Below, piece after piece: positions 39,719 through 64,000 of a DNA stretch of 64,000 nt. The notes beneath the pieces were generated by a model. The model had not been told where the DNA came from. It ran no database searches and saw nothing but the letters and a program-made list of their open reading frames with translations. The stretch covers positions 5,923,651-5,987,650 of the forward strand of contig NC_087388.1 in the NCBI RefSeq assembly GCF_963675165.1, written 5' to 3'. Position 1 is the first letter of the stretch, and each line of letters begins with the position of its first letter. The position numbers and the translations under genes were made by a program. The DNA is from Halichondria panicea (Eukaryota > Porifera > Demospongiae > Suberitida > Halichondriidae).

Positions 39719-41669
39719 ATGGCCCAATTGAAATTAGGTTATGAAGCTCTTGTGAGCTGTCATGAAAAGCTGGTCTCTGAAATTGCTCAAGACCCAAAGC
39801 AGATGGCTGTCTCATTATTCCAGCATCGCTTTATATTTGAAGATACGAAAGCTAAAATCAATGAGCTTGACAGAACCAGAAGAGATAAAGCTATATTGCT
39901 AGTGGATGACATTGAAAGCAAAGTCAAGTGTTATCCAGAGTTCTACGAAAAATTTCTGCTAATTCTCGGTAAAAATGAATTGCTGTATTGCGACCTTGTG
40001 AAGTCGCTCCGGGAGGAGTATGAAAAGATTGAAGCTGAGTCTAAATACGGTGATTTGAATGCCTACCATCACATGCCGGCATGTATACTATGCATCTACT
40101 TCATATAGCTATAGACTACAGTGTGTATAGCTACTACTGCATGAGCTCACTAGATTAGATTTTATGGATGCTATATAAAAACTTTATAATTATACATGCA
40201 ATCACTAATCAACTTTAGCCCCAGTGTATATCACACATTTATGCAGGATACGAAAGCTATCCATTGAGCCTGCTACAACCATTACCTGGATTTGTCATGG
40301 CTGAGGGAACTGGTACAGGTATTTTCGCTATTATTATTATGATAAAAGTCATAAATACAGAACTCAGCATTATTTCTTGTAGGCCTTCCTGAGTTACCCT
40401 CCAGGGACGATGATGATGGAGATAAACTAATCAGAGCAGCTGCAACAAGTCGGCAAGGAGCCCCTACTTGTATGATGTACAGTATATCTGCTATTGATGA
40501 CCCTGGTAATGATATAGATGAGGGAGGACCTGACCATAATACCGATGCAAGTTATTCAGACCCTCATCTGCATAGGTATGGTAATTCAGTGTAACTGATG
40601 ATAATCCAGTATCTAATTAATCTCCAGCATTAACAGGGAGTTCAACATCCAAGTAAACGTGAAAATAAGAAGCCAAACAAAACCTCAACAAAAGCGTGAA
40701 ATTACAAAGCCAAAAGAAAAGCTAACCCATAAAAACAAATGTTACAATTGTTTCTTAAGCTTATTTGTTGGATTCTTGTTCTTGTTTGTACTGGGCTTTT
40801 TAGGTTCACTATTGTACGATGGCTATTCACTCATTAATACTACAATTGTGGCACAAATTCACCGGCAATCTGTACCACTAATTGGAATACTCGACAATCC
40901 ATCAACTTTTGATAGTCTTAGATTCTCAGAACCAACCAACGGAACAGACTTTGTCCCCATTAGCTTCTATACATTGAGGAATTGCTCTTCTTCAGCTTCG
41001 TTCATAGATGTTGATATCAATGAGATTGTGACTGCAAGCTTTGACTCTCTGACTGAAAAGAGCAAGGCTGTTACTAAGTTGTATCTGGCAAGTAATACTA
41101 CACTTACTGTAGATATCACCACTGAAGTCCTCTCAAACTATTCAGTCGGTCATTGTAATGCATTTCTCCTCGTTTTTGATGATTTTAACAATTTCTTAAA
41201 CTTCATTTCAAGCTCTTCTTTAGTCGAAAATTTCTATTACAAAGGATGTATTGAGAACAACAAATCACAAGCTATGATCATGACATTCGACAAACCATCA
41301 TACTACTATATCGGTGTGTACACAGACATTCCGATTGAAGCTACTACTTTCTCTTTACACTTTCTCGGAACATATCTTCAATACAACATTTCAAACGAGA
41401 ATGCTGGTTGCTCTATAGACTCTCGTGACGATTTAAGTTGTGAAATAAAATTATATCCGAATACCAACCAGCAAACCTGTATTGTTGGTTCTGTACCACC
41501 TAGTACTACATTACTTGGAATAAAAGTAACAGCTGTAGACTTTTACGCCGCTGTTAACTCAGACACCAGCATTAATTTTTATTTTTATCTTCCTCTAATA
41601 TTCCTTACGATTGTTATTTGTATTGTGTTTTTTGTTTACTGCTATCCAAAGTTTAGGCTTTTGCACTAA
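39719..41669 (+). CDS. CARD receptor without ankyrin repeats, intact, 542 residues
   Basis: Exons 39719-40049, 40247-40318, 40383-40575 and 40637-41669 (phases 1, 1, 2). Residues 1-105 form a CARD (GYEALVSCHEKLVSEIAQDP, then YEKFLLILGKNE) closest to the minus-strand CARD type. Two short linker exons follow (YESYPLSLLQPLPG, then an acidic stretch). A Lys-rich segment leads to transmembrane segment 1 at about 238-258. The ectodomain opens VAQIHRQSVPLIG and holds about seven Cys and many NxT/S sequons (about 265-510), followed by a second hydrophobic segment at about 512-533 and a short basic tail. With no signal peptide the N-terminus is probably cytosolic. The role is unknown; CARD implies recruitment of a CARD partner. 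The upstream GC box matches other CARD genes. Confidence 0.8.
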
Positions 41670-41991
41670 CTGTCCATTATCATGCACCCTATGTTAATTG
41701 GTTCTTAAATTGGTTCATGTTGAGAAAAATATACATTTGCATCTATAGTGAATTAAGTATTAGTTGCAGCTAATATAGCTACTATATATATACGGCTGTA
41801 CTGTCACTAAGTTAAACGAAAATTAATTTCTCCTTCATGCATGTTGGGGTTGGAGGTGAGTCCACTGGACTAATGAAAGCCCCCATTGAACGGGTAGTCA
41901 ATCTACAGCAGAGAGATAATATACTTATAGGAGACTAGCTGTTCTATATATTCAGGTGGATGTGTACTGACTGGTGTATGTACACACATAC

Positions 41992-42400
41992 CTTTTCTTC
42001 CTTGATCTGGAATCAATTCCTGGGCTGGATTTGAGCAGTTCTGATAATTCCTCTGTGCCCCCCAACACTGGAGACCAAGAGTCACTGAGCCTGCAGAGCC
42101 TGAGGGAGAGTATTGCATGGGCATATATTATCAATACCATGCATGCAGTACAAGATTGATACATGTATATATGGCGACAAGATACACTGTATGAAGGTGA
42201 AAATTGTAGTCAACTATATAGAGCCTATAGCTATAGGTGTTTAATAAAGTGATCTGCTGATGGCCAGTATAATTATGGCTCACTCAGAGCTTGACTTGCT
42301 GTCTGTGACCCGGAGTTGAGAGGGAACGTGTGCACGAGCCGGCACAGCTCTAACTCTTGGATACAGAATCTCCTCTGTCGTCTCGCCGAGTCTATCCCAG
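41992..42400 (-). other. Possible orphan exons of an unknown gene
   Basis: A minus-strand stretch at about 41992-42090 (LSDSWSPVLGGTEELSELLK onward) lies between CTGCAG and GTATGT, a good acceptor and donor. Another at about 42289-42400 reads ELCRLVHTFPLNSGSQTASQ. Neither matches the receptor families. Confidence 0.25.
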
Positions 42401-42402
42401 CG

Positions 42403-43560
42403 ACAAGCATTGTCAAGGTTCATTCCATCACTATCCTCGATTGAACTCACATCAACTGTCGGATCAAGCCCCCAGTAAGGCTGAGGCAGAAGTTGGGTCA
42501 CCACCATCTTGGCCAAACGCTTTGAGCAGCTTCTTTGTTGAATTACCTTCTGCCTGTAAAGTGTACGAGTTAGACTACGAATATACATGGCCATAGAAGT
42601 ACATCTATATAGCTGCACAGGAAAGCAATTAATAGGTACCACTTTAGTACAAACTACTGTAAATGAGTCTACAATGTATAAAATCCTAATATAGTTATCA
42701 CCTTAAGTAATACTTGTTGACCAATTTTGACCTCAATGAATGCCTTTTCTTTCAGGTACTGCATCTGTTCAGGACTCAATTGGCTGTAGACATTACTTAA
42801 ATATGCTGGAACTCGAAACACCAGCTCTGTACAGCCTTCTCGAACATGCTTCAAATTCAGAACTTGGTGTGGTAGTAGTTGTTCCCAGCATTTCATGAAA
42901 ACTAACTTCAATTGTTGAATTTGATCGTAGGTGATTGCATCAAAGTCAACATCGATCTTACATGTTATCTCCATTGATTCAATATGAGACGGTTCAGGGC
43001 CAAAGTCCTTAACAAATAGAAAACATCGTCGATTAACAAATTGCTGAAACAAACGCTCATAACTCAGTAATGCTTGATCATCATCCTTACATGGAAAAAG
43101 AAATTCTTTTCGTATTGCGGAAATGAGTGAATAATTGAACCAAGAGCAAAAATTATTCTGTATGAAGTCAGATAATTCGCTAAAGCTGGTAACATCACGG
43201 AATAGAATCTCTTCAGAAGTTCTATGATAAATTGGGCTGTAATACGATTCTCGTGGTATTAAAAGCGCCTTGACGTACTGCAATACTTTGGAAATGTCAC
43301 AACGGTTTTCCAGATTCGTAATCGTGTTAGTGAGTAAGCTACAAAACTTCGAATGAATGCGTCGTGTTTCATCACGTAGGGCCTCCATGAACATACTATA
43401 AGAGATTTCTGTGGCTGATATTCTGTTTTCACTACAAGGAGTGTCACGAGTGAATCTTTTAATTTGAGGTGGTTTGGAGCTTAAACACTTATCTCTGCCA
43501 GTGACATGACCCAAGATGGTACACTTCCACAGCCGCATTGAAAGCTAATGAAATCTAGTT
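42403..43560 (-). pseudogene. Inverted fragment of the Cys-motif/ankyrin receptor gene
   Basis: 43540-42705 (minus) matches exon 5973-6928 of the gene at 5357 (HVTGRDKCLSSKPPQIKR, then about 260 residues at high identity). A lost A in the CGCGKC codons (GGAAGTG for GGAAAGTG) frameshifts its start, and the exon's first 90 bp are missing. A degenerate ankyrin exon follows (about 42556-42415, DVSSIEDSDGMNLDNACRWD), with the LLHLAC core lost. No CARD, transmembrane or ectodomain exon is attached. Confidence 0.75.
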
Positions 43561-43799
43561 ACTGCATTGTGTTAACTCTCCACCTGCTTGACCTTTGTAG
43601 TCCGCTAAATGATAGCGACAGAATGCATTTTGAAAGAATGTAGAGGCATGTTATAGTAAATATAGAGGCGATCTCACAATTTATATAGATGCACTCACTG
43701 CATGGTTGGAAGATTCCTCTGTTGTTTGTTGTCTCAATACGTACCTTATGCAGTTTTGTCTGAATGTAGAAGTTTTAAGCGGTTTTGCAGCTAGTCTAA

Positions 43800-44700: not shown

Positions 44701-45332
44701 CATGGAGCCGGGAGTGGCTCATAAAGTAACACGATACTGGAGTGCATACATGTCTGTGCATAGTTTCGAAGCCTAATATTAACGTACTTTAAGTATTATG
44801 CTTGTTAATTGAGCAGCAGCCTGGAGCTAGTGCATGAATACACTCTTCATACCACTCTCCTGAAACCACATGCCTTAGAGTGCATGCATGTGTATACCTA
44901 GAGCACTAAAGTGCAAACCCTCGGCTGGTGACGTGACATGACTATAAGAAACCAGAAGAGTGATATAATACAGCAATGTAGTAATGAAATATCATGTATG
45001 GCTTAACTGTCTAGCACAGCAACTCAGGAGCTAAACCAGACTGGAGGCATGCTAAAACATTTGAGAACAGGGTTTTAGTGGCACATATATATATGCACTG
45101 TGGACTAGGGTCACAGCAAAGAAGCCTGGAGTCTCATGCAGAGAAGTATGGCTCCTGGAATAGGATCCCAGAGTCAGCTAACAGAGACAAACCAGACACA
45201 CAATTCTAGTTTTCTATTGTATCGACCCTGTTCCACATAAAAATAATGAGATTCATAATGCTACTGCGTAACAAAGTTATTGTTTGCTTGGTTTAGGTGC
45301 AAGCTATAGCTAGTTGATTTAATAATTATACC
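44701..45332. other. Spacer upstream of the damaged CARD gene, no gene seen
   Basis: No convincing open frame. The GC box seen near other CARD starts was not found here. Confidence 0.3.
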
Positions 45333-47042
45333 ATGGCCGAATTGAACATAGGTTATGAAGCTCTTGTGAGCTGTCATGAAAAGCTGGTCTCTGAAATTGC
45401 TCAAGACCCAAAGCAGATGGCTGTCACATTATTCTAGCATCGCTTCATATTTGAGGATACAAAAGCTATAATCAATGAGCTAGACCGAACCAAAAGAGAT
45501 AAAGCGATATTACTAGTGGACAACATTGAAAGCAAAGTCAAGTCTTATCCAGAATTATATGAAAAATTCCTGTTCATTCTCGGTGAAAACAAATTGCTGT
45601 ATTGCGACCTTTTGAAATCGCTCCAAGAGGAGTATGAAATTATTGAAACCGAGTTTAAAGAAGGTAATTTGATTGCATAGACTAGGACTTGTGTGTAGAC
45701 TATGTATCTACTTAATGCATAGCTACTAAAAAGTGTGTGCACAAGCTACTACATTATGTACAGTCATGTGATCACTCATTTAGCCCCAGTTTATATTTTA
45801 CTTTGTGCAGGATATGACCCATTAAGCCTGCTACAACAATGCCATTTTGATTGTGGTTTTCACAGTATAAATATTTATATAGGCTTTGGGGAGCTATATT
45901 ACATTAGTATACAGTGCTGAAATTGTGTGTTCGTCTATATAGAAGTACCTATCATGGACGATGGAGATGGAGGGACACTACCTGATCCACTAGAGCACCC
46001 TCCTGATGACACTGAAGTAGGAGCGGACCTCAGAGCAAAAAACCAACAAAAGATTGAAAAGAAGGAAAACAAAAGGACCACTCTATGTCTCATCTTTTTG
46101 TTTGGGGTAACCTTATTGGGTGTAATGAGCACTTTTGGTTTAGTACTGCATTACAACAATCGGTATTTGCTCGTTGGTACTACCAATGTGGCACAAATTC
46201 ACCGGCAATCTGTGCCACTGATTGGAATACTTGACAATCCATCAACTTTTGATAGTGTTAGATTCTCAGAACCAACCAACGGAACAGACTTTGTCCCCAT
46301 TAGCTTCTATACATTGAGGAATTGCTCTTCTTCAGCTTCGTTCATAGATGTTGATATCAATGAGACAATGATTGGAAACTTTGGCTCCTCAACTGATAAG
46401 AGCAAGGCTGTTACTGAGTTGTATCTGGCAAGTAATACTACATTGACAGTAGATATAACCACTGACGTCATCCCAACCTATGCGACCAATCACTGTGTTG
46501 CATTTCTCCTTGTTTATGACGATTTTAGCAACTATATAAACTTTGTTTCCAATTCTTCAGAATTGGAAAATAATTTTTATCACAAAGAATGTATTGTTAA
46601 TGAAGATTCACAAACGATGAATATATCATTCGACACCCCATCGTACTACTATATTGGTGTGTATACAGATATTCCAACTGAAGCTACTACTTTCTCTTTA
46701 CACTTTGTTGGAAATTTTTTTCGATACGACATTTCAAACAGGAACGCTGGTTGCTCTATAGACTCTATTGTTGCTTTTTTAAGCTGCGAATTTTCTCCAA
46801 ATACTAATTCCATGTCCAAGGAAACTTGTATTGTTGGTTCTGTACCACCTAGTATTACATCATTAGGAATAAAAGGATCAAGTGTAAACTTTTACACTGC
46901 TGTCGTTTCAGCCACAAAAAGTGTGATCTATTCTAGTCTTCCTATAATTATTGTTGTTTGCATTATTTGCATTGTGAGTTCCATCTATTGTTGTTGTTTG
47001 TGTTATCAAACGAAGACCAAAGACCGTTATTTTGTACACTAG
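45333..47042 (+). pseudogene. CARD receptor copy with nonsense codon in the CARD; ectodomain intact
   Basis: The ATG at 45333 opens MAELNIGYEALVSCHEKLVS, close to gene 39719, but TTATTCTAGCATCGC puts TAG at 45435-45437 where the relative has CAG. The rest of the CARD exon is otherwise open to about 45662. A linker exon lies near 45811-45868 and the last exon runs from about 45943 to TAG at 47042. That exon runs straight from the acidic linker (GADLRA) into KNQQKIEKKENKRTTLC and transmembrane segment 1 with no intron. Ectodomain (VAQIHRQSVPLIG, PSYYYIGVYTDIPTE, ETCIVGSVPPS) and second hydrophobic segment are complete. An ATG at 45954 could start a CARD-less membrane protein of about 362 residues. 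Confidence 0.7.
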
Positions 47043-48849: not shown

Positions 48850-50641
48850 CTATGTATATGCAATAATAATTATGATTGCAAATACCAAAACAAAGAAATT
48901 TGGAGTGCACTGTTTTCTATTGCTACTTGGAGTGGGAGGTACTATAGCAACAACACACAATTCATCGTTTTCCTCAGTCATAGAAATACTAGATAGTGAA
49001 ACAGTACATTGCCTGATGTTGTCGTCATATAATATAACCGTGCACGTACTTATAGATTTCTCTGCAATCTCATGGATATTATATTGATGAGAAATTCCAG
49101 AGATGCGTAGATTGATGGTAGTAGGTACCATAGTAGTACAGATCACCAGACCAGCGTATAAATAGGAGTTTTTATTGAGCACTATCATCGCAGACAACCG
49201 ACTTCGGTTTAAACAAAATTTAAACAAAAAACCAGTTTGTATGCCAGTCTTCTGATTCAGAAACTCGGTATAATTATACTTCCAGGTCATCATATATCGC
49301 TAGAATAACTGGGCAATCACATGAGCTGGACACAATAGCTTGAGATGGGGTAATTGAATATGTTAGACTGGACCCATTCAAATAATAGCCTTCGTCAACG
49401 TGTTGTATTGGTCTAGTTACGCTGAAAGAGATCGGTTTATTCACAGCAACATGGTCAACATCCAGTTCTTGACAATCGTTGACTGTGAAGTCAATGAGAA
49501 ATCCTCGAGAAAGCTGGTTCTTTTCAATTACAGTGAGACTTATCGAGTCATGTGTACTCTTGATAAATGAGTTAACAAAGATTGCAGACATTTCAGGAAG
49601 TTGACATATGCTGTTTACATTGATGTTTAGGGGTGATGCAGGAAGAACAGTATTCATGTCTGTTGTAGAAAATGTAGGCTCTTCAAAACCAGTAGTGGGC
49701 TGAGTGGGCGGAGTTGACGTTATTGTCCATGGAGATTCAGAAACATTAGTGGGCAGAGTTGATGTTGTCCATGGAGGTTCAGAAACAGTAGTAGTTGGAA
49801 ACACTAAAGAATTTTCAGAACCAGTAGTGGGCGGAGTTGACGTATCAGTATGAGATAGCTCTAGTGTGAGAACAGGCAGTAAGACTGCTAAGACCACCAC
49901 TGTTAGTACCACAATGACAACCAGTAAGATTATTATCGTCAAGAGCCACGACCATTTGCATCGCCTTGAATGCTGATGAAAAAAGTTGAATAAATAATAC
50001 ATTAAATATAATGCTAGTTAAGGCTTACCGTTGTTACTAGAGACTGATCGCCAGTGCTGGATATGTCTCCATGATTGGTGTCAGCTTTGCTTGTGTGATC
50101 TGCATTCAGTGCATTCATGTTGTGAATAATTATATAGAAGTGTCTATATAGAGTTAATTTACCTTTGGTGGGATCAATGGAATTTTTCTGCTTCACTGTA
50201 TTGATGCTGGTCATTTCCATTGTGCCGCTATCAGACCCTTAATAGAGTATAATATAATGATTGTAATTCCGAGCAGGTATAGCACTAACCATTAGTAGCC
50301 AGCTGCAGTGAAGAGGAACTCAGTCTGTACTCTGTATTTCCGGTAGCTTTAGTAAGACATCTTTCGACCACCTTTGCGAGATCATTGTGCCCAACACTAG
50401 AACGTGAGAGAGCCTCAAACACGTCTGTCCAGTTTCTCTCACCACCTTTTAGCCACTCTGATAGACCCTCAAGATAGCAGTTATCAGGATCTTCACGACA
50501 TCTTATATTGATAGTTTCAATAGTAGAATTATTAACTTGCAGAGCTAACAGCATCTGCTTCCATTTGGCTCTAGCTTGCAATGTTGCTTCATAGACTGCA
50601 CTAAGATCATCTAAAGTTATTGAGAGTTTGGAGTCGGCCAT
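48850..50641 (-). pseudogene. Death-TM-ectodomain receptor with one frameshift
   Basis: Exons 50641-50290 (Death, starting MADSKLSITLDDLSAVYEAT), 50237-50163, 50099-50029 and 49972-48850, phases 1, 1, 0. The Death domain shows WKQMLLALQV, CYLEGLSEWLKGGERNW and VGHNDLAKVVER. A strong transmembrane segment (LLTIIILLVVIVVLTVVVLA) follows, then a long Thr/Pro/Ser-rich stalk, the ectodomain (YYLNGSSLTYSITPSQ) and a hydrophobic tail (FFVLVFAIIIIIAYT). Near 49275-49285 relatives have GAAATATATACCGAG but this copy has GAAGTATAATTATACCGAG, a 4-base gain that breaks the frame mid-ectodomain. There is no CARD exon upstream; the Death exon has its own ATG. Confidence 0.8.
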
Positions 50642-51354
50642 AACAATAATTATATAGCTAAAATTAATGATTCACTGTTTCTCTCAGTATGCATGTGGTT
50701 GGCTAACTGTACACAAAGATGTATAAAAAAGGGCATCAGATACAACACAAGCCACACCAAGGCATAACCAGTATACAGTGGCCCAGATGGTCACCCGCCA
50801 CTGCTATGGCCACTGCTATGGCTACTGCCAATTGCAAAGAATCACCATGCATATGGCAGCCCGGCCCCCTTATCTCCTGGCGGTATACCAGTCATGCAGG
50901 TGTTCACATCAATCAAGTTAACGCTGAATATACTTTTAACTTTGTTTTGCATGCTTGCCCTGCTGGGAATGTTCTGAAGCCTGCTAAGGTAGTCATATAC
51001 TTAATAATCGAGTTAAGTACTGCTATACATGCATATGTACTATATAGGTATCCAAGCATGTAGCCGTAACTTATGGCTACATAATTTATGGCATAAGATA
51101 GCGTGGGAGTCAGCAAACGCGGGGAACAGCATGTAGCCATAGGATAGCGTGGGAGTCAGCACACGCAGGGGATGCATAGTCTATAGATAAGCAAAACAGT
51201 TTGTGAAACCACTTATAGGAGTATTAATCAGGATACTTAGACATAGTTATTTTGTTGCTCACTGACTCACATTGTAATAAAAGCAAATTGCTATAAATTA
51301 TACTTACAACTATAATTAGTATACATTATAATGAGCTATACCATAATTAATTAA
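50642..51354. other. Spacer, 3' flank type; no gene seen
   Basis: Repeats the 34.8-35.4 kb flank. TAGCGTGGGAGTCAGCA occurs twice in tandem near 51099 and 51145. Confidence 0.45.
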
Positions 51355-53131
51355 TTAAACTGTAAATAATAGCGTTATTGCAGATACTAAAACAAAGAAA
51401 TTAGCAGTGCACTGTTTGCCGTTGTTAGGGGGAGTACAAGTAGGAGCAAGAGGAGATAGTCTCGGAGATACCAGAGCAACAACACACAGTTCATCGTTTT
51501 CCTGGTACACATTAGAGAGCGAATTTATAGTACAGGTGTTGATGTAGTGATGGATAACGGTGCACCTGCTCAAGGGTTTCTCCGCAATCGCAAGGATATT
51601 ATATTGGTAAGAAATTTCAGAGAGGCGTAGATTGATGGTAGTATGTACAATAGTGGTACAGATCACCAGACCAGCGTATAAATAGGAGTTTTTATCAACC
51701 ACTATTTTTGTAGACAGCTCGTCTCGATTGAAGCAAAAGTCAACGATAAAACCAGTTTGTATACCAGTTTTCTGATTCAGAAACTCGTTATATATTTCCA
51801 GGTCATTATATATCACTAGAATAACTGGGCAATCACATGAGCTGGACACAATATCTTGAGATGGGGTAATTGAATATGTTAGACTGGACCCATCCAAATA
51901 ATAGCCTTCGTCAACGTGTTGTATTGGTCCAGTTACATCCAAAGACAACGACTTATTCATTACTGTACGTTCAACATCCAATTTTTGACAATCGTTGATC
52001 GTGAAGTCAATGAAGGCCCCTTGAGGCAGCCAGCTCCCTCCGAATATAGATAAAATTAAGAAATCGATTGTATGTTTGATAAATGAGTCAACGAAGATTG
52101 CTGACACTTTAGGCAGTTGATATATGCTGTTTACATTGATGGGTAGGTCTGATGCAGGAGTCGTGCCACCTGCTACGGTGACGTCTATTGTAGCTGTATG
52201 AAATGTACTCACTGTTGGAGTCGATTCAGAAACAGTAGTATATACGATGGGTGGAGGTGAAGTTGACGTATCAGAATGAGATAGCTCTAGTTTGAGAACA
52301 GGCAGTAAGACTGCTAAGACCACCACTGTTAGTACCACAATGACAACCAATAGGATTATTATCGTCAACAGCCACGACCATTTGCAACGCCTTGAATGCT
52401 GAAGAAAGTTAAATTAAATTCGCATTCATTGTCATGCATGCACAGCCACATGCATCTGCACATGCACATGAGTACATGAAAGTAACTAGTTTAAGCTTAC
52501 CATTGTCACCAGAGATTGATCGCCAATGCTGGATACTTCTTCGTGATTGGTGTCAGTTTGGTTTTCATGATCTGCATTCATGCAATGTTGTTATAAAATT
52601 ATGTGGCTCCTGATAGTTTGGAGTGTATTTATATACCTGTAGTGATGTCAAGCTGACTTTTCTGCTTCACCTCACTGATGTTAGTCATTTCTATTATGCC
52701 GCTATCAGACGCTTAAGGAGTATAATAATGATTGTAACTCCGAGCAGGTATATGTACCACTAACCATTAGTAGCCAGTGAAGATGAACTCAGTCTGTACT
52801 CTGTATTTCCGGTAGCTTTAGTAAGACGTCTTTCGACCACCTTAGCGAGATCACTGTGCCCAATACTAGAGCGTGAGAGAGCCTCAAACACGTCTGTCCA
52901 GTTTCTCTCTTCACCTTTTAACCACTCTGATAGACCCTCAAGATAGCAGTTATCAGGATCTTCACTACATCTTATATTGATAGTTTCAATAGTAGTATTA
53001 TTAAGTTGCAGAGCTAACAACATCTGCTTCCATTTGGCTCTAGCTTGAAATGTTGCTTCATAGACTGCACTAAGATCATTCAAAGTTATTGGATTTTGGA
53101 GTCCTTCACGATGGTTAGAGCGATTATGCAT
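51355..53131 (-). CDS. Intact Death-domain transmembrane receptor, 518 residues, no CARD
   Basis: Exons 53131-52765, 52711-52637, 52571-52501 and 52398-51355 (phases 1, 1, 0). From the first usable ATG the product has a Death domain (about 15-115: LSAVYEATFQARAKWKQMLL, YLEGLSEWLKGEERNW), two short acidic juxtamembrane exons, and an RRCKWSW start-transfer flank. Transmembrane segment 1 is at about 180-205, a short Thr/Pro stalk follows, then the ectodomain with paired Cys (SCDCPVILVIYNDLEIY, FCFNRDELSTK, SYLYAGLVICTT) and a C-terminal hydrophobic stretch (FFVLVSAITLLFTV) with nothing after it. No signal peptide, so the Death end is probably cytosolic. Upstream lies its former CARD exon, split by a MITE. 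Death domains recruit partners of the same fold; which signal it passes is unknown. Confidence 0.8.
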
Positions 53132-53832
53132 ACCTGCTGAGTTTGCTTGATCCACAGCTTCTAAGGCCTTGCAAAGTCAATTTGTAGTTTCTCAGGCCCT
53201 GCGCTTGGAAATTGACAGCTTTAAAAAAAAGTTAAATATCACGTGACCTCAAATTAAAGGCACTAAAAGAAAAGAAAAGGAAAAATGTTTATGGGTTTTT
53301 GATCATGAATAATTATAATTATGACTAAAATTAATTAATGAAAATTATGCACTTCTGCTTATTAAGGAAGTTAGGGGTGTGTTTTCAATTAAAATTCTAT
53401 GAATATCATTATCATTAATATTTATCAAATGCCTCTTGCTATTTTAGAAATAATAGCTTGAGAAACTACAAATTGACTTTGCTTGGCCTAACTCCTTGTA
53501 CTTCATCCACAGCTTCTAACTCCTTGTACTTATCTGTAAGCACTGATAAGAGGAGGTCATCATGTCGCTCGTTCCTTTCCCGAAGTATTGTAATGAATTT
53601 ATCATAAGTTCCCTGAAAACTTTTGACTTTTGCATGCTTGCAATTTTAGCACTAGTATTCTGGCTTTATCCGTGTTTGTTTTGTCAAGCTGATTGATTTC
53701 CTGATTCGTTTCGTATGGTATTAAATGGTTTTGAAACATAACTCCAGCATTTCCTCCCGGATCTGAAGCAAAGTCAGCAACTAGCTGCTCGTTGCAGCTC
53801 ACCAATACATTGTAACCAACATTTGTTGTCAT
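53132..53832 (-). pseudogene. Former CARD exon of the Death receptor, broken
   Basis: The ATG at 53832 opens MTTNVGYNVLVSCNEQLVAD. A 4-base insertion (GCATGCAAAAG where relatives have GCAAAAG) frameshifts it to a stop at about 53602. A MITE splits the remainder, and about 20 bp (CACAGCTTCTAACTCCTTGT) are duplicated beside it. The end (GVDQANSAG-type) is fused in frame to the Death exon, with the usual intron apparently lost. Confidence 0.75.
53165..53488. mobile_element. Harbinger-like MITE inserted in a CARD exon
   Basis: Ends are GGCCTTGCAAAGTCAATTTG and its complement with one or two changes, about 30 bp each. The 3-bp TAA lies on both sides (53162-53164, 53489-53491), as expected for PIF/Harbinger elements. 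324 bp, no open frame. Confidence 0.8.
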
Positions 53833-55068
53833 ATTGCACCACTCACAGACCTGCCATGCAATAAATGTATAGCATTCTTATACCAATGTTGTCTCAATAC
53901 TTACAGTCTTTGCCAGAGTGTAGATTGAAATAGAGATTCTACTGAGGTTTTAAGTTGCAGCTAGCTTCATATGCACACTGGCGTAACATTTTTAATTAAT
54001 GTATCCCAAAAAGAGCTATAGTATTCATTACAGGGGATTTTTCTTTTCAGTACATGCAGTCATGAGATTGAGTGTGAGAGCTTATTCATGCACTGTTACA
54101 CTTGCACTGCACATGTTGCATAAAGGTTCCATATGGAATGCACAGAATTCAAGTTAAGACATCATGTCTCAGCCTATCAACAGTATTATAACACTCCTAG
54201 CTGACAACGTCCAGTCAGATTGTTGGAACTCTTCAGTCTGTACACATTCTTTGAATAGAGACGTCAGTTGAGGTGGGATAAAAGTTTACTCCGACGGAAT
54301 TTCTCTGTCAAATTATGTATGCGGACACCGAGGTGCTTGTCAAGACCGGAAACACGATCATGGCTGCATGTGCAGATAACTTGCTACAGCAGATGCCACA
54401 CCTGCATGCATGGGATGATTAGAATGACATTCATTAGCTGAACAAACACACAACTCCCCCAGAGCCACTATGAATATTATTCACAGGACCACCATGCTAC
54501 TACGATTTTAATAAAGAACGTGACAATGTTAACTTGTCTACACCATTATCCCTACAACGCCAACAGTATTTTCAGGGAGTTATAGCAGCACAGTGTGTGA
54601 ACATAGACTCACACATTTCTGTACTAGCTAGCTGAGTTACCTGGTAATGTGGCAGAGACAGTTCAGTGCAGGATTTCTTTCTCTTTGATGGCTTTTGCCT
54701 CTTCGGTTTGTCTTCTTGACCAGTTGAGATTTGCCGACATCTCCTCTGTTTGTTACTAGCAGTGAGGTTGAGATGGAGTGTGTGGGGGCGGGTAGTGTGT
54801 GGGCGTGGAGTGGGTTAGGAACAGTGACCGTACAATCTCTATTGGCTGCTTGAGTGGTACAAAAGTCGTTTGATTGGACGAATGAATGTTGGAACAGGAG
54901 GGATTGGGTATATACCAGAGTTAGTTTTAACTTAATGAGATCATGAATAATTTTGCTCTAATTAGTCAAGTTATCACACCACCTCAGGCTCTGCTATAAG
55001 ATTGGGGGTGGGGCTCATTTTCATAATAATAATGCTAAAAGCTTATTGTTCACTTACTGTCAAGCATC
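53833..55068. promoter_or_regulatory. Divergent spacer between CARD-Death and CARD-ankyrin genes
   Basis: It lies between the minus CARD start (53832) and the plus CARD start (55069). It is colinear with 25504-26769. Near the plus end GATTGGGGGTGGGGCTCATT is followed by AAAGCTTATTGTTCACTT and TGTCAAGCATC just before the ATG, as at 5357. Confidence 0.5.
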
Positions 55069-58000
55069 ATGTCTGAGTCAGCTGAGTACAAAGCATTCAA
55101 GGACTGTCACAGCAGTCTTATTACTTGCATCAAGCAGTCTCCCAAAGATATCTGTGATCATTTACTCCCTTTTGAGATTCTAGCACCAAACGATCGAGAT
55201 TATCTCAAGAATGACACTCATGATGATGGTGACAAAGCACGACGAATACTTGATGCTGTACTGCTCCAGATGGAAAATAGTCCACTGGTTTTTCATTCAT
55301 TCGTTAGTGCTCTTGAAAAAGCTGGTAGTTTTACGAAGGCTGGTGTACAAAGACTCAAGGATGCATTACAGAGACGAAATCAAGAACAGTGCGATCAAAG
55401 TCAAAGAATAGAAGAGAGTGGTAGGTTGTATAAATATAAATCCTAGATTGTATTATGAAAACCCAACTCATGGATTACTATGTATGCAGCCAATATCCGT
55501 AAGACATTGTTAACTGACCTATTTTTATGATGCCTATACTGGACTATAGCGGGTTCCGAATTAAAGAAGCGTATGAAAGGATTGAAGCCCAGATCTAGAG
55601 TCAGCGATGCATGAAAGCATACCCAACCAATCAAATAACTGTATAATTATATTATAGACTCTATATAATTATATCTAAATCTACAACAATTTTCACCTCA
55701 CTAGTCTAGCTGGAATTAAAAGGAGAAATCAGAGTACACTAATTGACCTTACGTGCCAATGTGTATATAGAATAGTGTATAGAGCAATCTCACTTCACAC
55801 TCTGTATAGTAGTTGATTTTAATAATTTAAGGCTTACAAAGGCTTGCATTTCACGTGAGTTGAAAAGTGACTTAAGTGTGTGAAAAGCAAATTAATCTCA
55901 GTTCACTGATTTTGTATATACAGGATATGAGAGCTATCCAATAAACCTGCTACAACCATTTCCTATGCCGTTTGGATTTGTCATGGCTGACGAAACTATA
56001 TCAGGTACTTTCTTTATAATTATAAAGGCTCTATTTATAATAGGAACTGTACTGTAACACAATAGTGGTACTGGCTTCTTTTCTTCATACATGTACTGTA
56101 CTACTATATACATAGGCATTCTTGAATTACCCTCCGTGGATGATAAAGAGACACTACCTAATCCATTAGAGCACCCTCCTGATGACGCTGAAGTAGGAGC
56201 AGACCTCAGAGCAGCTGCAACAAGTCGACAAGAAGCCCCTACTGGTATATATGTGAATGGAATTAACAGTTGTGCTATAATGTGTGTTTACTAATTGCTA
56301 CAGTTGATACATTTGAAGGACGATTGCTACAAACCTTCCAAAGTAGAGAATTTGAACAAGCCATTGAGCTTCTATCTCAGGCTGAAAGTCAGTACATTGA
56401 TCTGAGAGGTGTGTCTGATGCAGATGGCAAAACTCTCCTTCATCTTGCATGTCGTAATGACTGGATGGACTGGCATGGCATTGTGTGTAGCCTCATCGAT
56501 AAACACCATTGCGATGTCACAGCAGTAGATGAAGATGGGAACACACCTCTTCATGAGGCATATCAATGTGGCAATCTCTTATCAGTAAAGTATCTGCTTA
56601 GCTTACCGACTTGTAATCCTGATGCAGTCAACAAGCACGAGTACACTGTGCTGAGAATGGCCCTTGAAAAGAATGACAGAAAATCTGTAAGAAATCTTTT
56701 AGCGACAGGACGAGTCGATCCTAGGAAAGGTAGCTCATGTGGTCATACATATCCAGAACTACTTGCAATAAATCAGCTTCAACCACAACCACAAAATTAC
56801 GATGGCTCAGCTCTTCAAATGGTGACTCAGTTCGCAAAATGTATGGAGAGTAGCAAATGCAGTATTTGCCCGCCTTTCACTTCTTATTGCTTGCGAGATA
56901 CCCTCCATAAAATCTTGAAGAATCGTGATCAAGTTTCAATCCCTAAAATAGTAGATTGTATTAAAGAGAACATGTTGCCTCTTCCAGCAAACCCAGACAA
57001 GATTCATGATTTGCTTGTGGATATTCAAAGCTTGTCAGACGAGTTTAACATATGTACTAATGAATTAGGGGAACTTCAAGTTCAAAGAAGAGACACAGCT
57101 TTAAGTATGTTACAGTAGCTCTATTGCATTATAACTATAACTGTGTCATAATTATGTATACAGGATATGAGAGCTATCCAGTGAGCCTGCTACAACCATT
57201 TCCTATGCCGTCTGGATTTGTCATAGCTAATGAAACTATATCAGGTACTTACCGTATAGCGGGTATATTTCGAGGGTACAAATGTTCGCGGTTTTCGCGG
57301 ATTGAGTCTGTACCGCGAAAATTTATACCCACGAAAATTTATGAATAGTAGGCGTGTTCAGTATTATGGATTCGAGGCTAACGGTGTGGCGGTACAGCTG
57401 CATGTTGATGTGCGCATGCGCCAAAAGGCTGGAACTCAGACCACGAAAATAAAATCTGCGAAATCCTTTGTAGAGGTCCATCCGCGAAAATTTATACCCT
57501 AGAAATATACCCGCTATACGGTATGTTATACAGAAGGCTATGTATAGGAAATTATAACTATGCTGATACAGCTCTTGTGCCAAATATAGTTAGCTATGAT
57601 GCAGTGCTAGTATCTCTTCTTTTCTTGTGTAGTTCTTGAGTTACCTACCATGGGCGATGGGGATGGAGAGACACTACCTGATCCATTAGAGCACCCTCCT
57701 GATGACGCTGAAGTGGGAGCGGACCTCAGAGCAGCTGCAATAAGTCGACAAGAAGCCCCCACTGGTATGTGACTGTAGTACTTGTGCGATAATTATGACG
57801 GATGTATTAACACAATTGCAGTTGATTCATTTGAAGGACGATTGCTGCAAACCTTCCAAAGTGGAGAATTTTACCAAGCCATTGAGATTCTATCTAAAGC
57901 TGAATATCAGTCCATTGATCTGAGGAGTGTGTCTGATGCAGATGGTAAAACACTCCTTCATCTTGCATGTCGCAAAGGCGGAGTAGACTGGAAGAGCATT

Positions 58001-61000
58001 GTGTGTAGCCTCATCGATAAACACCATTGCGATGTTGCAGCAATGGATGAAGATGGGAACACGCCCCTTCATGAAGCATATCAATATGTCAATCTCTCAA
58101 TAGTAGAGTACCTCCTTAGTTTACCGACTTGTAATCCTGATACCATAAACAAACAGGAGTACACTGTACTGAGAATGGCCCTTGAGTTAAATGACAAAAG
58201 GACTGTGAGAGATCTTCTAGCGACAGGACAAGTCGATCCTAGAAAAGGTAGCTCACGTGGTCATACATATCCAGAACTACTTGCAATGAATCAGCTTCAA
58301 CCACACAATTACGATGGCTCAGCTCTTCAAATGGTGACCCAGTTTTCAGAGTGCATGGAGAGTAGCAAATGCAGTATTTGCCCGCCTTTCACTTCTTATT
58401 GCTTGCATGATACACTCCACAAGATCTTGAAGAATCGTGATCAAGTTTCAATCACTGAAATAGTGAATTGTATTAAAGAGAACATGTTACCTCTTCCAGC
58501 AAACTCAGACAAGATTCATGATTTGCTTATGCATATTCAAAGCTTGTCAGACGAGTTTGACATACGTACTGACGAATTAGGGGAACTTCAAGTTCAAAGA
58601 AGAGATACGGCTTTAAGTATGTAGCTCTATATTGTGATTATATGTCCATATAATTATATACAGGATATGAGAGAAATCTGCTACAACCATTTCCTATGCC
58701 GTCTGGATATGTCATGGCTGATCAAACTACATCAGGTACTTTCGTTATATCGAAGGCTCTATACAATTGTACTGTATGATATAACTCCTGCGTCAAATGT
58801 AGGCAGTCATGCATATATACACATGCAGTGCTGGTTTCTCTTCTTTTCTTGTAGACATTCTTGAGTTACCTACCACGGACGATGGAAAGACACTACCTGA
58901 TCCATTAGAACACCCTCCCGATGACGCTGAAGTGGGAGCGGACCTCAGAGCAGCTGCAACAAGTCGACAGAAAGCACCTTCTGGTATGTTTACAGTATAC
59001 TTGTGCAATATAATGGATATATTTAAACAATTGCAGTTGATTCATTGCTGCAAACCTTCCAAAGTGGAGAATTTGAGCAAGTCATTGAACTTCTATCGCA
59101 GGCTGAAAGTCAGTCCATTGATCTGAGAGGTGTGTCTGATGCAGACGGCAAAACTCTCCTTCATCTTGCATGTCGCAAAAACTGGGTGGAATGGCACCAC
59201 ATCGTGTGTAGCCTCGTCGATAAACACCATTGCGATGTCGCAGCAGTGGATGAAGATGGGAACACACCCCTTCACGAGGCATATCAATGTGGCAATCTCT
59301 TATCAGTAGAGTACCTACTTAGTATACCGACTTCTAATCCTGATGCAATCAACAAACACGAGTACACTGTACTGAGAATGAGCCTAGAGGCAGATGACAG
59401 AAAAACTGTAAGAGATCTTTTAGCGACAGGACGAGTCGATCCTAGAAAAGGTAGCTCACGTGGTCATACATATCCAGAACTACTTGCAATGAATCAGCTT
59501 CAACCACAAGATTATGATGGCTCAGCTCTTCAAATGGTGACCCAGTTTTCAGAGTGCATGGAGAGTAGCAAATGCAGTATTTGCCCCCCTTTCACTTCTT
59601 ACTGCTTGCGTGACACCCTCCATAAAATCTTAAAGAATCGTAATCAAGTTTCAATCACTGGAATAGTGAATTATATTAAGAAGAACTTGTTACCTCTTCC
59701 AGTAATCCCAGATGAAATTCATGGTTTACTTCTTGCCTTGTCAGACGAGTTTGACATGTGTGGGGAGCCTACTAACAATTTTGGAGGAATTCAAGTCAAA
59801 AAGAAAGGTATTAAAGTGGGTATATATTTCATGTGCACAGGCATGTATAGCAATTGTTACACGCTTATAATTATATTCCACAGGAGCTAGATCTGCAGCA
59901 GCACACTTTCAACATGATATTCAACAGCAGAGGGCAGGGCAATCTCCTGGGAATTTCGAATTGCTTGCAGCTAGCAGCTTCACTGAAGTTGAGGTGCCAG
60001 CTGCAGCCAAAAATATCACTGAAGATGAAGAAACACCTGACTACCACTCCGATGCAAGTGACGCAGTGCCCCTTTTGCAACAATCACATACAGAGGTATA
60101 TAATACCAATACTAGCTATGGCAAAAAGGCAAAAAGGCATACTAAACGAAATTCTAGCCACGCATCTTCTGATAGGAGCTTAGTACTTTAATACGTGTAC
60201 ATTTTAGAACCTATATTTTCTTAAACAGGTGCAGAAATCAACACGAAGTTGTAATATAGATGAGTCCGACGTTTACTGTGCATATACAATGTGCTTATTT
60301 TGTTACTTTTGTTGGTTTGTTGTCTTCTTGATTCTCGGAATATGTGGTGCAGTATTGTACAATGGCTATTCATTTGTTGGTACTACTGATGTGGTACAAA
60401 TTCACCGGCAATCTGTGCCACTAATTGCTATTCATAATTTATCAGCTAATTTCATTCGGCTCACAGAGATCAATGAAACAGACTTAGTCCCCATTAGCTT
60501 CTACATGTTAAACGATTGCTCTTCTAAAGATGTATTTATAGACATTAAGATCAATGAGATTGTGACTGTAAGCTTTGACTCTTCGACTGACAAGAGCAAG
60601 GCTGTTACTGAGTGGTATCTCCTTGGAAACACTACACTTACTGTAGATATCACCACTGTTGTCATTTCTAACTTTTCAACCAATCATTGTATTGCGTTTT
60701 TTCTTGTTTTCGACAGTGTCAACAAGTTCTCAAACTTCATTTCAAGTTCTTCTTTAGATAAAGAATTCTATTACAAAGAATGTATTGCAAATGAAAAATC
60801 ACAAACGATGAATATAACATTCAACAAACCATCATACTACTATATTGGTTTGTACACAGACATTCCCACTGAAGCTACTACTTTCTCTTTACACTTTCTC
60901 GGGACATATCTTCAATATGAAATTTCAAACGGGAACGCTGTCTGTACTATAGACTCTCTTGATAATTTAAATTGTGATTTTTCTCCAAATATACTAAATA

Positions 61001-61209
61001 CCAACCAGCAAAGTTGTATTGTTGGTTCTGTTCCACCTATATATACTGATACACAATTTGGAGTAAAAAGAGCAACTGTAGCCCTTTACACTGCTGCTAA
61101 CTCAGACGCAGCAATAGATGCGTATTTTTTTATTCCTCTGTTATTGTCTGTTTTCTCATTTTGTACTGTGACTATATGTTTTTGTTCCAAATTTTTTTAT
61201 GATAGTTAG
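55069..61209 (+). CDS. Intact 12-exon CARD / triple ankyrin-cassette / TM / ectodomain receptor, 1511 residues
   Basis: Exons: 55069-55420, 55924-56004, 56116-56244, 56304-57104, 57164-57244, 57633-57764, 57822-58616, 58664-58735, 58855-58983, 59037-59807, 59884-60095, 60229-61209. All add up to 1512 codons. Exon 1 is the CARD. Exons 2-4, 5-7 and 8-10 are three copies of one cassette: a YESYPxxLLQPFP exon, an acidic PLEHPPDDAEVGADLRAA exon, and an ankyrin exon with about three repeats plus a Cys-cluster tail. Introns 1-10 are all phase 1. Exon 11 is a linker. Exon 12 has a Cys-rich transmembrane segment 1 (about 1200-1222), the ectodomain (VVQIHRQSVPLIA, SYYYIGLYTDIPTE, SCIVGSVPP) and a second hydrophobic segment near the C-terminus. 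No signal peptide, so CARD and ankyrin parts are probably cytosolic. It is the most complete family member here. Confidence 0.85.
57252..57521. mobile_element. TA-flanked MITE in intron 5 of the receptor gene
   Basis: CCGTATAGCGGGTATATTTC at the left is matched by GAAATATACCCGCTATACGG at the right, with TA on both sides. The paralogous intron at 1975-2088 lacks it and has a single TA at the site. The interior has further inverted CGCGAAAATTTATACCC segments. 270 bp, no transposase. Confidence 0.9.
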
Positions 61210-62007
61210 TGATTTATGATTCATGTTTTGAAATTATTGATCTCGCTAATATTGGTCTTATAACACGGACAATATTTTTAATTTATACTTATAATTATAT
61301 ACGATGCATGAATGAATTAATATAGATCAGTACTGACCCTATAGTACATAATTATTGTGCTGCACATGCACGTACAAGTGCATATCATTGTTATATGTAC
61401 CCTGTACTCCCCCTATGCAATGAGCCCTTATCATTCTCCCAAAAAATGTGACATAATAATTTTAAGACGTAGACATAAGACGGTAATCTTCTATTGAATA
61501 TCCACTATCAGTGAAACAATCAATTCATAATAATCACAGAAGATCACAGTTCTGCGAAAACACTTCTAAGTGTTTACGATATAGAGAAGATTGCCGTCTT
61601 ATAAATACAACTGACACAAGCATGATTCTCTTATGACAAGCCATTTTTGTGATTATGTAAAACTTAATGTAATTGTTCTTTAATTAGAATTATTTTCTAT
61701 AAGTGCAAAGATTAAAGGCGTGGCTTCCGGTAAGCAGTCATTTCCATGAACATTGTGCAACGAAATGCTTTTAGAGGCCATGATAATGCATTCCATGAAA
61801 TATAAGTGCCTCAAAAACTTTGCGCTATACTGTATATATAGTTGCTATGCCAATTTTTAAACAAAACAGTTAGTCGGCTATAATTTAATATAATTATATA
61901 TGAAAAGTATGGGCATGTAACACAATATGACATTTCCTTGTATAAATCATTGACTCACATGGCATGAAAATCTCAGTCTAACATATATAATTTTAACGTA
62001 TACATAA
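61210..62007. other. Convergent 3' spacer; small inverted-repeat element at 61475-61602
   Basis: ATAAGACGGTAATCTTCTAT and ATAGAGAAGATTGCCGTCTTAT are inverted ends of a segment of about 128 bp at 61475-61602. The rest separates the 3' ends of two convergent receptor genes and shows nothing else. Confidence 0.5.
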
Positions 62008-63980
62008 TTATAGTATATACAACAGTATCTTAGCAACTACCATGAAGTTGAATATTGCACACACCAAAGCAAATAAGTTTGGAGTGCTCCGTTTGCCATT
62101 GCTGACACTCACACCAATTACACTAGTAAGATTAACAGGAAATACTATAGCAACAACACACAGTTCATCATTGTCCTCAGTCATAGTGATACTAGTAGAT
62201 AGTGAAATGGTACATTGCTTGATGTTATTGTCATATAAAATGAAGCAGGATTTCTCACTAATCACATGGATATTATACTGGTGAGAAATTCCAGAGATGC
62301 GTAGATTGATGGTAGTAGGTACAATAGTAGTACAGATCACCAGACCAGCGTATAAATAGGAGTTTTTATCGACCACTATTTTTGTAGACAGCTCGTCTCG
62401 ATTGAAGCAAAAGTCAACGATAAAACCAGTTTGTATACCAGTTTTAAGAAACTCGGTATATATTTCCAGGTCATCATATATCACTAGAATAACTGGGCAA
62501 TCACATGAGCTGGACACAATATCTTGAGATGAGGTAATTGAATATGTTAGACTGGACCCATTCAAATAATAACCTTCATCAACGTGTTGTATTGGTCTAG
62601 TTACATTCAGGGAGATCGATTTATCCACAGCAATACGGTCAACATCCAGTTCTTGACAATCTTTGACTGTGAAGACAATGAGAGATCCGTGAGAAAACCG
62701 GATTTTTTCGAATACAGTGAAAGTTATTGAGTCGTATGCATGCTTGATAAACGAGTTAACAAAGATTATATACCCCCCAGGCAGTTCGTATATGCTGTTT
62801 ACAGTGATGTTTAGGTTTTTTTCTGATACAGGAAGGACAGTAGTCATGTCTGTTACAGCAATTGCAGGAAACACTAAAGAATCGTCAGAAACATTAGTGG
62901 GCGGAGTTGATGTTGTCCATGGAGATTCAGAAACAGTGGTGTATACGATGGGTGGAGGTGAAGTTGACTTATCAGTATGAGATAGTTCTAGTGTGAGAAC
63001 AGGCAGTAAGACTGCTAAGACCACCACTGTTAGTACCACAATGATGACCAATAAGATTATTATCGTCAACAGCCACGACCATTTGCAACGCCTTGAATGA
63101 TGATGAAAAAGGTTGAATACATGTATACATTCAAGTTTAGGCTTACCATTGTCACCAGAGACTGATCGCCAGTGCTGGATATTTCCCCATGATTGGATGT
63201 TTTAGCTTGGCTTGCGTGATCTGCATACATCAGTGCATGTTGTAAATAGAATTGGTCCCTCGGTGCATTAACTTACCTTTGGTGGGATCAAGCTGACTTC
63301 TCTGATCCATCTCACTGATGTTGGTCATTTCCATTATGCTACCAGACCCTTAATAATTATGATCAAAATTATTGCTTATACATGCAGGTACCACTAACCA
63401 TTTGTTGAACTCAGCCTGTACCCTTTAGATACTGTATGTCCAGCATGTCCACTAAGACGTCTTTCGACCACCTTAGCGAGATCACTGTGCTCGACACTAG
63501 AGCGTGAGAGAGCCTTAAATACGTCTGTCCAGCTTCTCTCTTCACCTTTTAGCCACTCTGATAGACCCTCAAGATAGCAGTTATCAGGATCTTGACGACA
63601 TCTTATGTTGATAGTTTCAATGTTAACTTGCAAAGCTAACAACATTATGCATACCTGCTGAGTTTGCTTGATCCACAGCTTCTAATTTCTTCTGTAAGCA
63701 CGGAGATGAGGAGGTCATCATGTCGCTCATTCTTTTCCTGAAGTATTGTAATGAATTTATCATAAGAAAACTTTTTACTTTTGCTTGCAATTCTAGCACT
63801 AGCATCCTGGCTTTATCCGTATTTATCGTGATAAGCTGATTGATTTTATGATTCATTTCGTCTGATATCAGATGGTTTTGAAACAAAACTCCAGCATTTC
63901 GTTTTAAATCGAAAGCGGTGAGTAACTATATCTTCTCGTTGCAACTCACCAATACATTGTAACCAATATTTGTTGTCATA
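62008..63980 (-). pseudogene. CARD-Death receptor copy with damaged 5' half; ectodomain open
   Basis: The CARD exon opens at 63980 (MTTNIGYNVLVSCNEKI) and meets a stop at once. Further on a 7-base deletion follows AKVKSF. The end of the CARD exon is fused to a Death exon that has lost its first third (it resumes at MLLALQV, 63645). Small exons 63348-63277 and 63220-63147 are intact. The acceptor of the last exon is changed from CATCAGCATTC to CATCATCATTC, removing the AG used by relatives. The last exon (stop at 62008) is otherwise open: transmembrane segment LLVIIVVLTVVVLAVLL, Thr/Pro stalk, ectodomain with SCDCPVILVIYDDLEIYTEF, and a hydrophobic tail. Confidence 0.75.
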
Positions 63981-64000
63981 TTGCACCTCTTATACAGACC

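Follow-up and report, generated by a model that had tools for sequence, protein, structure and literature searches.

Can a single extracellular domain be joined, within one genomic neighbourhood, to several different signalling modules? The question is raised by a window of 64,000 nucleotides (the whole stretch of DNA analysed here) from the sponge Halichondria panicea, corresponding to positions 5923651-5987650 of contig C12. Open reading frames (ORFs) for putative membrane proteins occur on both strands, and a first-pass annotation had described them as two receptor sets, plus-strand proteins with CARD and ankyrin modules and minus-strand proteins with CARD and Death modules, sharing one ectodomain. 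Sponges reject foreign tissue and sort microbes, yet little is known of receptors that would link recognition at the surface with cell death. One mapped array, in which an ectodomain family lies beside several Death-fold and related modules, offers named stretches for graft tests.

Sequence relationships of the ectodomains

On sequence evidence, the ectodomains of the plus-strand class (PL) and the minus-strand class (MI) are homologous and belong to one family of five classes. A profile-profile comparison of 16 PL and 9 MI sequences by hhalign, named as a check by the first-pass annotation, was significant (probability 96.7, E 4.2e-10); among 100 column shuffles of MI the highest probability reached was 5.4 and the lowest E 7.2e-3. 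The sets of the window alone (3 vs 2 sequences) gave a probability of 95 and an E of 2.7e-8. Among the window's own 1107 ORFs of 30 amino acids or more, blastp connected the two sets in both directions (E 7.7e-7 to 3e-3, 24-28% identity). The genome (131 Mb, 39 contigs) was searched with five family members, and counts from it are lower bounds; here a PL protein query matched MI copies directly at E 2e-8.

The other classes, C3, C4 and C6, connect to both. All 10 of the 10 class pairs matched, with probabilities of 93.6-99.5 and E values of 2e-7 to 2.4e-23, and the matches span 65 to 207 columns. Four of these pairs were also compared with shuffled columns, which gave E 1.8e-3 at best. In the genome search the class C6 query found C3 at 1.4e-28, MI at 6e-13 and PL at 1.7e-8, and the class C4 query found MI at 1.9e-27.

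An alignment was built from 35 ectodomains (PL 16, MI 9, C3 8, C4 1, C6 1), leaving out the broken C4 copy in L010 and further copies found in the genome searches. Six cysteine columns are common to all five classes, although the cysteine is absent from one of the eight C3 sequences at one column and from two and one of the 16 PL sequences at two others. The late cysteines to which the first-pass annotation pointed are indeed shared, but as part of these six columns, and MI has two additional cysteine columns of its own (9/9). The claim that the plus- and minus-strand ectodomains align in the same order holds in this alignment, where all four of the quoted motif pairs share columns; one residue had been misquoted, gene 39719 reading DIPIE and not DIPTE.

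In the maximum-likelihood tree every class with more than one member is recovered as a single group (support PL 100/100, C3 99/99, MI 80/93), MI and C4 are joined at 99/99, and the class labels need the minimum possible number of changes. The homology of the two sets is retained, and their division into two is too simple: four classes occur in the array, and the fifth is a single gene on contig C6. This isolated gene may resemble the founder.

Extent of the array and its modules

The genome searches put the ectodomain in two places, a stretch of C12 from about 5.874 to 6.180 Mb and C6:5882282-5883190; one more row (C4, E 0.3, query residues 11-104 around the first transmembrane segment, TM1) was not counted. 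The array on contig C12 is about 305 kb long. Modules were mapped by tblastn (E 1e-6 or better) over 258,014 of its 310,501 bases, window included, and each was assigned, by DNA position, to the next downstream ectodomain on the same strand within 7 kb. The 48 ectodomain places mapped in the array comprise 20 of PL, 18 of MI, 8 of C3 and 2 of C4; 34 of them are stop-free and cover at least 90% of the reference (PL 15, MI 10, C3 8, C4 1). Five complete ectodomain ORFs lie in the window, three PL on the plus and two MI on the minus strand (Table 1). The ORF of gene 39719 has two further copies, 97 and 98% identical in protein (all three together at C12:5902038, 5964267 and 6003563), pointing to recent segmental duplication.

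Three CARD types are distributed unevenly over these places. CARDa lies upstream of 10 PL places; CARDb of 5 PL, 3 C3 and 2 C4 places; and CARDm of 6 MI, 1 PL and 1 C3 places. A Death-like segment precedes 18 of 18 MI places, and a TRADD-N-like domain (TRADDx) precedes 8 of 8 C3 places and one truncated PL. In the lone gene on contig C6 the order is Death-like, TRADD-N-like, ankyrin, transmembrane segment (TM), ectodomain, TM. It follows from the map of 48 places that, by position, one ectodomain family is paired with different outputs and one CARD subtype with different ectodomain classes. The earlier proposal of one ectodomain with alternative CARD, Death and ankyrin modules is therefore supported by the homology, by the shared cysteine columns and by the map.

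Table 1. Positions of family members and their upstream modules in the window
Feature	Position	Strand	Evidence
CARD type a of gene 39719	39719..40039	+	PF00619 E 2.8e-5, 24.5 bits vs cut-off 23.9
PL ORF: TM1, ectodomain (40848-41555), TM2, short tail	40617..41669	+	open frame, hydrophobic segments, family membership
CARD type a upstream of 45921 ORF, one in-frame stop	45333..45653	+	tblastn 84% to CARDa; ORFs 45318-45434 and 45438-45677, one frame
PL TM-ectodomain-TM ORF (ectodomain 46188-46904)	45921..47042	+	alignment, hydrophobic segments, tblastn
CARD type b upstream of 60208 ORF	55066..55383	+	PF00619 E 1.2e-4, 22.5 bits (below 23.9); PF16739 E 0.0018, below cut-off
First of three ankyrin stretches upstream of 60208 ORF	56267..57115	+	PF00023 E 4.4e-14
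Second ankyrin stretch	57779..58621	+	tblastn 82% to first
Third ankyrin stretch	59027..59887	+	tblastn 77% to first
PL TM-ectodomain-TM ORF (ectodomain 60391-61098)	60208..61209	+	alignment, hydrophobic segments
MI ORF: TM1, S/T/P-rich stalk, ectodomain (51406-52134), C-terminal hydrophobic end	51355..52413	-	alignment, hydrophobic segments
Death-like segment of gene 51355	52763..53092	-	PF00531 E 0.051, below cut-off; four-segment profile vs FADD E 0.016-0.17
CARD type m of gene 51355, in two frames	53532..53835	-	tblastn pieces
MI ORF (ectodomain 62083-62802)	62008..63201	-	alignment, hydrophobic segments
Death-like segment of gene 62008; first 23 of 110 positions unmatched	63397..63645	-	tblastn 24-110/110
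CARD type m of gene 62008, in two frames	63690..63982	-	tblastn pieces
MI ectodomain copy in two frames (ORFs 48853-49299, 49277-50017)	48850..50017	-	blastp, tblastn
Death-like segment upstream of split MI copy	50288..50620	-	tblastn 90%
Broken MI copy; Death remnant in two frames at 36840-37167	35440..36556	-	blastp, tblastn
Truncated PL copy (ectodomain part 9870-10388)	9708..10415	+	blastp, tblastn
CARD type b, TRADD-N-like domain and ankyrins in class-C3 order, upstream of truncated PL copy	5345..7645	+	Pfam, tblastn
TRADD-N-like and ankyrin fragment of class-C3 type, with stops	42394..43544	-	tblastn
Open CARD type m without assigned ectodomain	25150..25701	-	PF00619 E 0.0016, below cut-off

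Some arrangements of modules recur along the array. At window positions 48850-53877 (minus strand) one CARD is followed by two Death-TM-ectodomain units, and the same layout is found at C12:6093356-6098201; one CARD could here be spliced to alternative ends. Upstream of the 60208 ORF, positions 55896-59887 hold three tandem cassettes, each read by eye as two small open stretches and one ankyrin stretch, and the three ankyrin stretches recur at C12:6100672-6104187. Between the ankyrins and TM1, PPxY motifs (one to three each) occur in five of the eight C3 loci (L002, L003, L005, L006, L008); two loci have none, and in L004 the scan could not locate the linker. These linker motifs could bind WW-domain ubiquitin ligases.

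Identity of the signalling modules

The signalling modules differ in how closely they match curated domain models. CARDa passes the PF00619 cut-off, and CARDb (at most 22.5 bits, copy L009 without any match) and CARDm (18.9-21.7 bits) fall below it. CARDa is 46% identical to CARDm over 79 residues and 23% identical to CARDb over 78, and the three types are taken, from these comparisons, to be related. The ankyrins exceed their cut-offs: PF00023 at 52.3 bits (56267-57115), PF12796 at 75.6 bits (5936-7645), and PF12796 at 62.6 bits in the class C6 gene.

The Death-like segments cover most of the PF00531 profile at 14.1 bits (MI) and 13.1 bits (C6), against a cut-off of 22.6, and the Pfam scan of the MI copy at 50288-50671 did not match Death. 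When a profile of four such segments was compared with PDB, FADD was the best natural match, at the E values of Table 1; two designed repeat proteins ranked above it (about 1e-3, over a short helix). The earlier CARD and Death identifications were thus upheld by Pfam for the PL CARD, and the MI Death segment stayed under its cut-off.

The domain ahead of the C3 ankyrins, roughly 290 residues long, is named TRADD-N-like, and not TRADD-N, as its matches are below cut-off. Pfam gave nothing over cut-off in the copies scanned. PF13820 was not matched in the genome, a result made uninformative by a control that matched nowhere either, and PF20694 (TRADD-like_N) matched one of the six copies of that scan, L058, which lies outside the array (profile 3-68 of 69, E 0.02, 15.1 vs 23.7 bits). 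A PDB profile search with nine copies gave none at E up to 10. A UvrD-helicase match of copy L008 (E 0.0098, below cut-off) was taken as chance. Outside the array, at L055-L058 (C10, C1, C6), the TRADD-N-like domain has a Death-like segment before it and a Roc-type GTPase after it; these flanks were read by eye in four loci, and Pfam, run on one locus for each flank, gave Death at E 0.069 (L056) and Roc at E 2.7e-11 (L057). The genome searches found no ectodomain at these loci.

Membrane layout and fold

Hydrophobic segments flank the ectodomain on both sides in 31 of the 35 ectodomain ORFs at the threshold used, and its extracellular location is suggested by hydropathy. The PL, C3 and C6 proteins have a tail after the second segment, MI and C4 end within or just past it, and MI has a stalk rich in Ser, Thr and Pro after TM1. 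The first-pass annotation had placed TM1, ectodomain and tail in a single terminal exon; one open frame does carry TM1, the ectodomain and the C-terminal hydrophobic segment, and that this frame is a terminal exon we infer. A swapped cassette might show itself by a constant intron phase at the 5' end of these ORFs, but a simple acceptor scan gave nothing for the three PL ORFs and mixed phases elsewhere, and no claim is built on it. Glycosylation sequons help only in part, because C3 (7.5 vs 3.7 expected after shuffling) and slightly PL (4.6 vs 3.5) and C6 (3.0 vs 2.2, one row) exceed expectation, C4 equals it and MI falls short.

No Pfam family matched the ectodomain over its cut-off. Pfam and PDB searches with the ectodomain ORFs gave weak matches, all of them far below cut-off and taken as chance; examples are a bacterial penicillin-binding protein (E 0.016) and Psg1 (E 0.056) for P0001 and TNFSF18 (E 0.9) for P0005. 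Of 243 pattern matches in IMG/VR contigs, none was confirmed. Shallow AlphaFold2 models from eight window sequences had a mean pLDDT (predicted local distance difference test) of 63.7 for PL, with a confident core at about 51-177, and of 52.6 for MI, with a core at 57-173. Both cores consist of eight strands and one helix in identical order. The structure prediction proposed for the two ectodomains thus agrees in strand order, as a matter of consistency and not of independent proof, because both alignments use the same eight sequences. The models suggest a jelly-roll beta-sandwich for which no family can be named.

A proposed membrane receptor family and the alternatives

What could such an array encode? 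The reading that we hold to be probable, with considerable reservation, is a family of membrane receptors with the N-terminus inside the cell and one ectodomain carried on interchangeable Death-fold modules. The upstream CARD, Death-like, TRADD-N-like and ankyrin stretches would be exons of the same genes as the ectodomain ORFs. Their N-terminal modules would be cytoplasmic, TM1 would cross the membrane, and a beta-sandwich of roughly 220 residues would stand outside the cell. The PL, C3 and C6 proteins would re-enter through TM2, and the hydrophobic tail of MI and C4 may serve as a second anchor or as a glycosylphosphatidylinositol signal. A ligand or partner on another cell or a microbe would cluster the ectodomains; clustering would gather CARD or Death domains and seed Death-fold assemblies, leading perhaps to inflammation-like or cell-death outputs, with the ankyrins and the TRADD-N-like domain choosing partners. 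Tandem duplication and exchange of upstream exons would keep rewiring the same ectodomain to different outputs. If true, this would be an example of a receptor family exchanging output modules in place.

In a bolder form, unlikely in our estimation though worth stating, the array would be a locus for histocompatibility-like or microbe recognition in the sponge. Ongoing upstream-exon swaps would wire its new ectodomain straight to CARD, Death and TRADD-N-like modules, and surface contact would set off Death-fold signalling with no need of adaptors in between; which output a given ectodomain serves would then vary between individuals. A receptor function, and above all the allorecognition reading, is what we infer from sequence, and the cluster is a good candidate for a sponge recognition system.

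Several observations weigh against a receptor family of this kind. The modules are joined to ectodomains by position and not by transcripts, and a CARD is not in reach (7 kb) for 12 of 18 MI, 4 of 8 C3 and 4 of 20 PL places. Neither the Death nor the TRADD-N assignment reaches a curated cut-off, and some scans gave no match at all. Some of the mapped upstream modules are themselves broken, at least four of them in the window (the Death remnant at 36840 and three CARDs, those belonging to genes 45921, 51355 and 62008), and 14 of the 48 ectodomain places are broken or partial. Sequons are below the shuffled expectation in MI (1.4 vs 2.6), and the single C4 row has no excess (3.0 vs 3.0). Deeper nodes of the tree have low support (75/53) and connect long branches, of which the tree program itself warned. 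Diversifying selection on whole ectodomains was not seen pairwise, the ratio of nonsynonymous to synonymous substitution rates (dN/dS) exceeding 1 in 1 of 104 PL, 0 of 42 MI and 0 of 28 C3 pairs. Because of the broken modules in the window, its CARD being split over two frames, gene 51355, which had been offered as the exemplar of a CARD-Death protein, is probably not a working receptor of that type, though its ectodomain is open.

Could the array then consist mostly of decaying duplicates, with the module swaps as segmental-duplication debris beside unrelated genes? The broken ectodomain places, the broken CARDs of the window and near-identical blocks such as the copies of the gene 39719 ORF speak for decay, which we nevertheless regard as improbable. 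The 34 full-length ectodomains are open, and among stop-free copies (pairs with dS 0.01-1) the median pairwise dN/dS of the ectodomains is 0.50 in PL (104 pairs), 0.57 in MI (42) and 0.29 in C3 (28). For the modules the medians are 0.19 in CARDa (54 pairs), 0.41 in CARDb (75), 0.57 in Death (51), 0.35 in ankyrin (63) and 0.44 in TRADDx (20); 6 of the 51 Death pairs, which differ little (median dS 0.07), exceed 1. Constraint seems to act on the stop-free frames, more loosely on the PL and MI ectodomains than on CARDa. Against decay stand also the recurrent upstream order, with Death before every MI and TRADDx before every C3 place, and the Death-TRADDx-ankyrin-ectodomain order standing alone on contig C6.

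A place in internal membranes, with a GOLD-like lumenal domain, two spans and cytosolic CARD or Death modules serving cargo sorting or stress sensing, likewise seems to us improbable. It is suggested by Foldseek, which put p24/TMED and GPR180 GOLD-type domains among the best matches of the PL model (E 3e-4 to 2e-3), with GOLD-type matches recurring for MI (2e-3 to 4e-3). The likeness of GOLD, PPC and GPR180 N-terminal domains extends over PL model residues of about 54-176 (Z 8.2-8.8, root-mean-square deviation 2.7-3.3; 1nqj, 5sv5, 9fow, 5azw), but at 10-15% identity in those rows and with no sequence match. GOLD is not singled out, because other jelly-rolls score about equally: in Foldseek and VIA-align, PPC, GOLD and GPR180 domains are tied with SEC14-like, calpain, DeCLIC and virus capsid jelly-rolls at Z of about 8-9, and collagen-binding and PliG domains are also level. 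An array of about 305 kb with a share of broken places would, moreover, suit recognition better than trafficking genes.

Two-span proteins with a large cysteine-containing loop, as in PL, C3 and C6, also recall the P2X/ASIC layout, and ligand-gated channels or pore formers regulated by Death-fold modules might be considered, all the more as the DeCLIC N-terminal domain tops the list for the MI model (Z 9.7, root-mean-square deviation 3.4, 107 aligned), tied there with other jelly-rolls. We think this very improbable: Pfam channel families were not matched at E up to 1, a PDB sequence search with one PL and one MI protein turned up neither P2X nor ASIC at E up to 1, and MI and C4 stop at the hydrophobic segment. 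Finally, that the likeness of the two ectodomain sets reflects composition or convergence of unrelated beta-rich, Ser/Thr/Tyr-rich extracellular regions, as identity of only about 25% and a common jelly-roll with many unrelated neighbours might suggest, has next to no chance of being correct and is rejected at the sequence level, because none of the 100 column shuffles approached the observed score and intermediate classes link the sets at E down to 1e-27, with the six cysteine columns coinciding in all five classes.

Comparison with known systems

The expansion of TRADD-N proteins in Amphimedon and the oyster was described by Kaur et al. (2021). In Amphimedon queenslandica, a large lineage-specific expansion of the NCOA6 clade comprises 357 TRADD-N proteins in a sponge, mostly with one to three Death-like domains, TRADD-N and then variable C-termini, ankyrins among the commonest, according to the accessible text (PMC8195603). 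This is the order of the C3 and C6 genes here. Membrane spans or an ectodomain are, however, not mentioned for the sponge proteins in the accessible text of PMC8195603, and the PL, MI and C4 places lack a TRADD-N-like module, bar one truncated PL. The domain itself also differs, PF13820 being unmatched here and PF20694 weakly matched in the one copy outside the array. The Crassostrea virginica expansion, given there as Cys-rich ectodomain-TM-DED-TRADD-N, is matched in the present family by a putatively extracellular cysteine-containing domain, a membrane helix, Death-fold and TRADD-N-like modules and an expanded state (PMC8195603, accessible text). According to that paper, the oyster proteins start with the ectodomain and carry the signalling part C-terminally. 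In the present family the order is the opposite, with signalling modules upstream and a C-terminal ectodomain that a second hydrophobic segment usually follows. The vocabulary of intracellular modules is therefore already known, because these Amphimedon and oyster expansions have been described.

The ectodomain and the layout appear new. No described family with either was recognised in Pfam, PDB or the accessible open-licence literature on the subject, and nothing relevant on a combination of GOLD domain and CARD was found in the accessible literature. The accessible main text of an Amphimedon graft transcriptome study does not contain the words CARD, ankyrin or receptor (PMC5450542).

The clustering of ectodomains proposed here, coupled to a cytoplasmic Death-like domain, is reminiscent of TNFR-type death receptors and FADD. 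TNFR-type death receptors are type I proteins with TNFR cysteine repeats and a C-terminal Death domain after the TM. In the present family, by contrast, the modules lie upstream of the TM-ectodomain ORF, the predicted ectodomain is a beta-sandwich, and TNFR was not matched in the Pfam scans of ORFs at E up to 1. Tetherin (BST-2), with an N-terminal cytoplasmic part, a TM, an ectodomain and a C-terminal hydrophobic end, has the topology proposed for MI and C4, but no sequence relation was seen. Among invertebrate allorecognition loci, Hydractinia Alr and Botryllus fuhc are clusters of duplicated membrane receptors with broken copies. Clustered, duplicated putative receptors with broken copies are found here too, but Ig-like Pfam domains were not matched in the ORFs scanned.

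Other features of the window and genome

No RNA family in the window exceeded its threshold. An LTR-type (long terminal repeat) retroelement ORF of 1543 amino acids lies at window positions 27968-32599 on the minus strand, within a GC-richer stretch (0.494 in 28001-32000 vs 0.36-0.42 elsewhere). Its integrase region, read by eye, stands ahead of the reverse transcriptase, which is an unusual order for gypsy-type elements.

Silicateins are spicule proteins of marine sponges in which Ser26 replaces the cysteine of cathepsins, according to the accessible text of PMC6233156. In the genome, 4 of 11 silicatein-like exons have the active-site serine (L074, L076, L077 and L078, on C2 and C6), five have cysteine and two are without a readable site; at ten other silicatein-like loci the site is cysteine in seven, unreadable in three and serine in none. 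Because silicatein-like exons with an active-site serine are present, the sponge origin taken for granted in the first-pass annotation is supported, and the DNA probably comes from a siliceous sponge.

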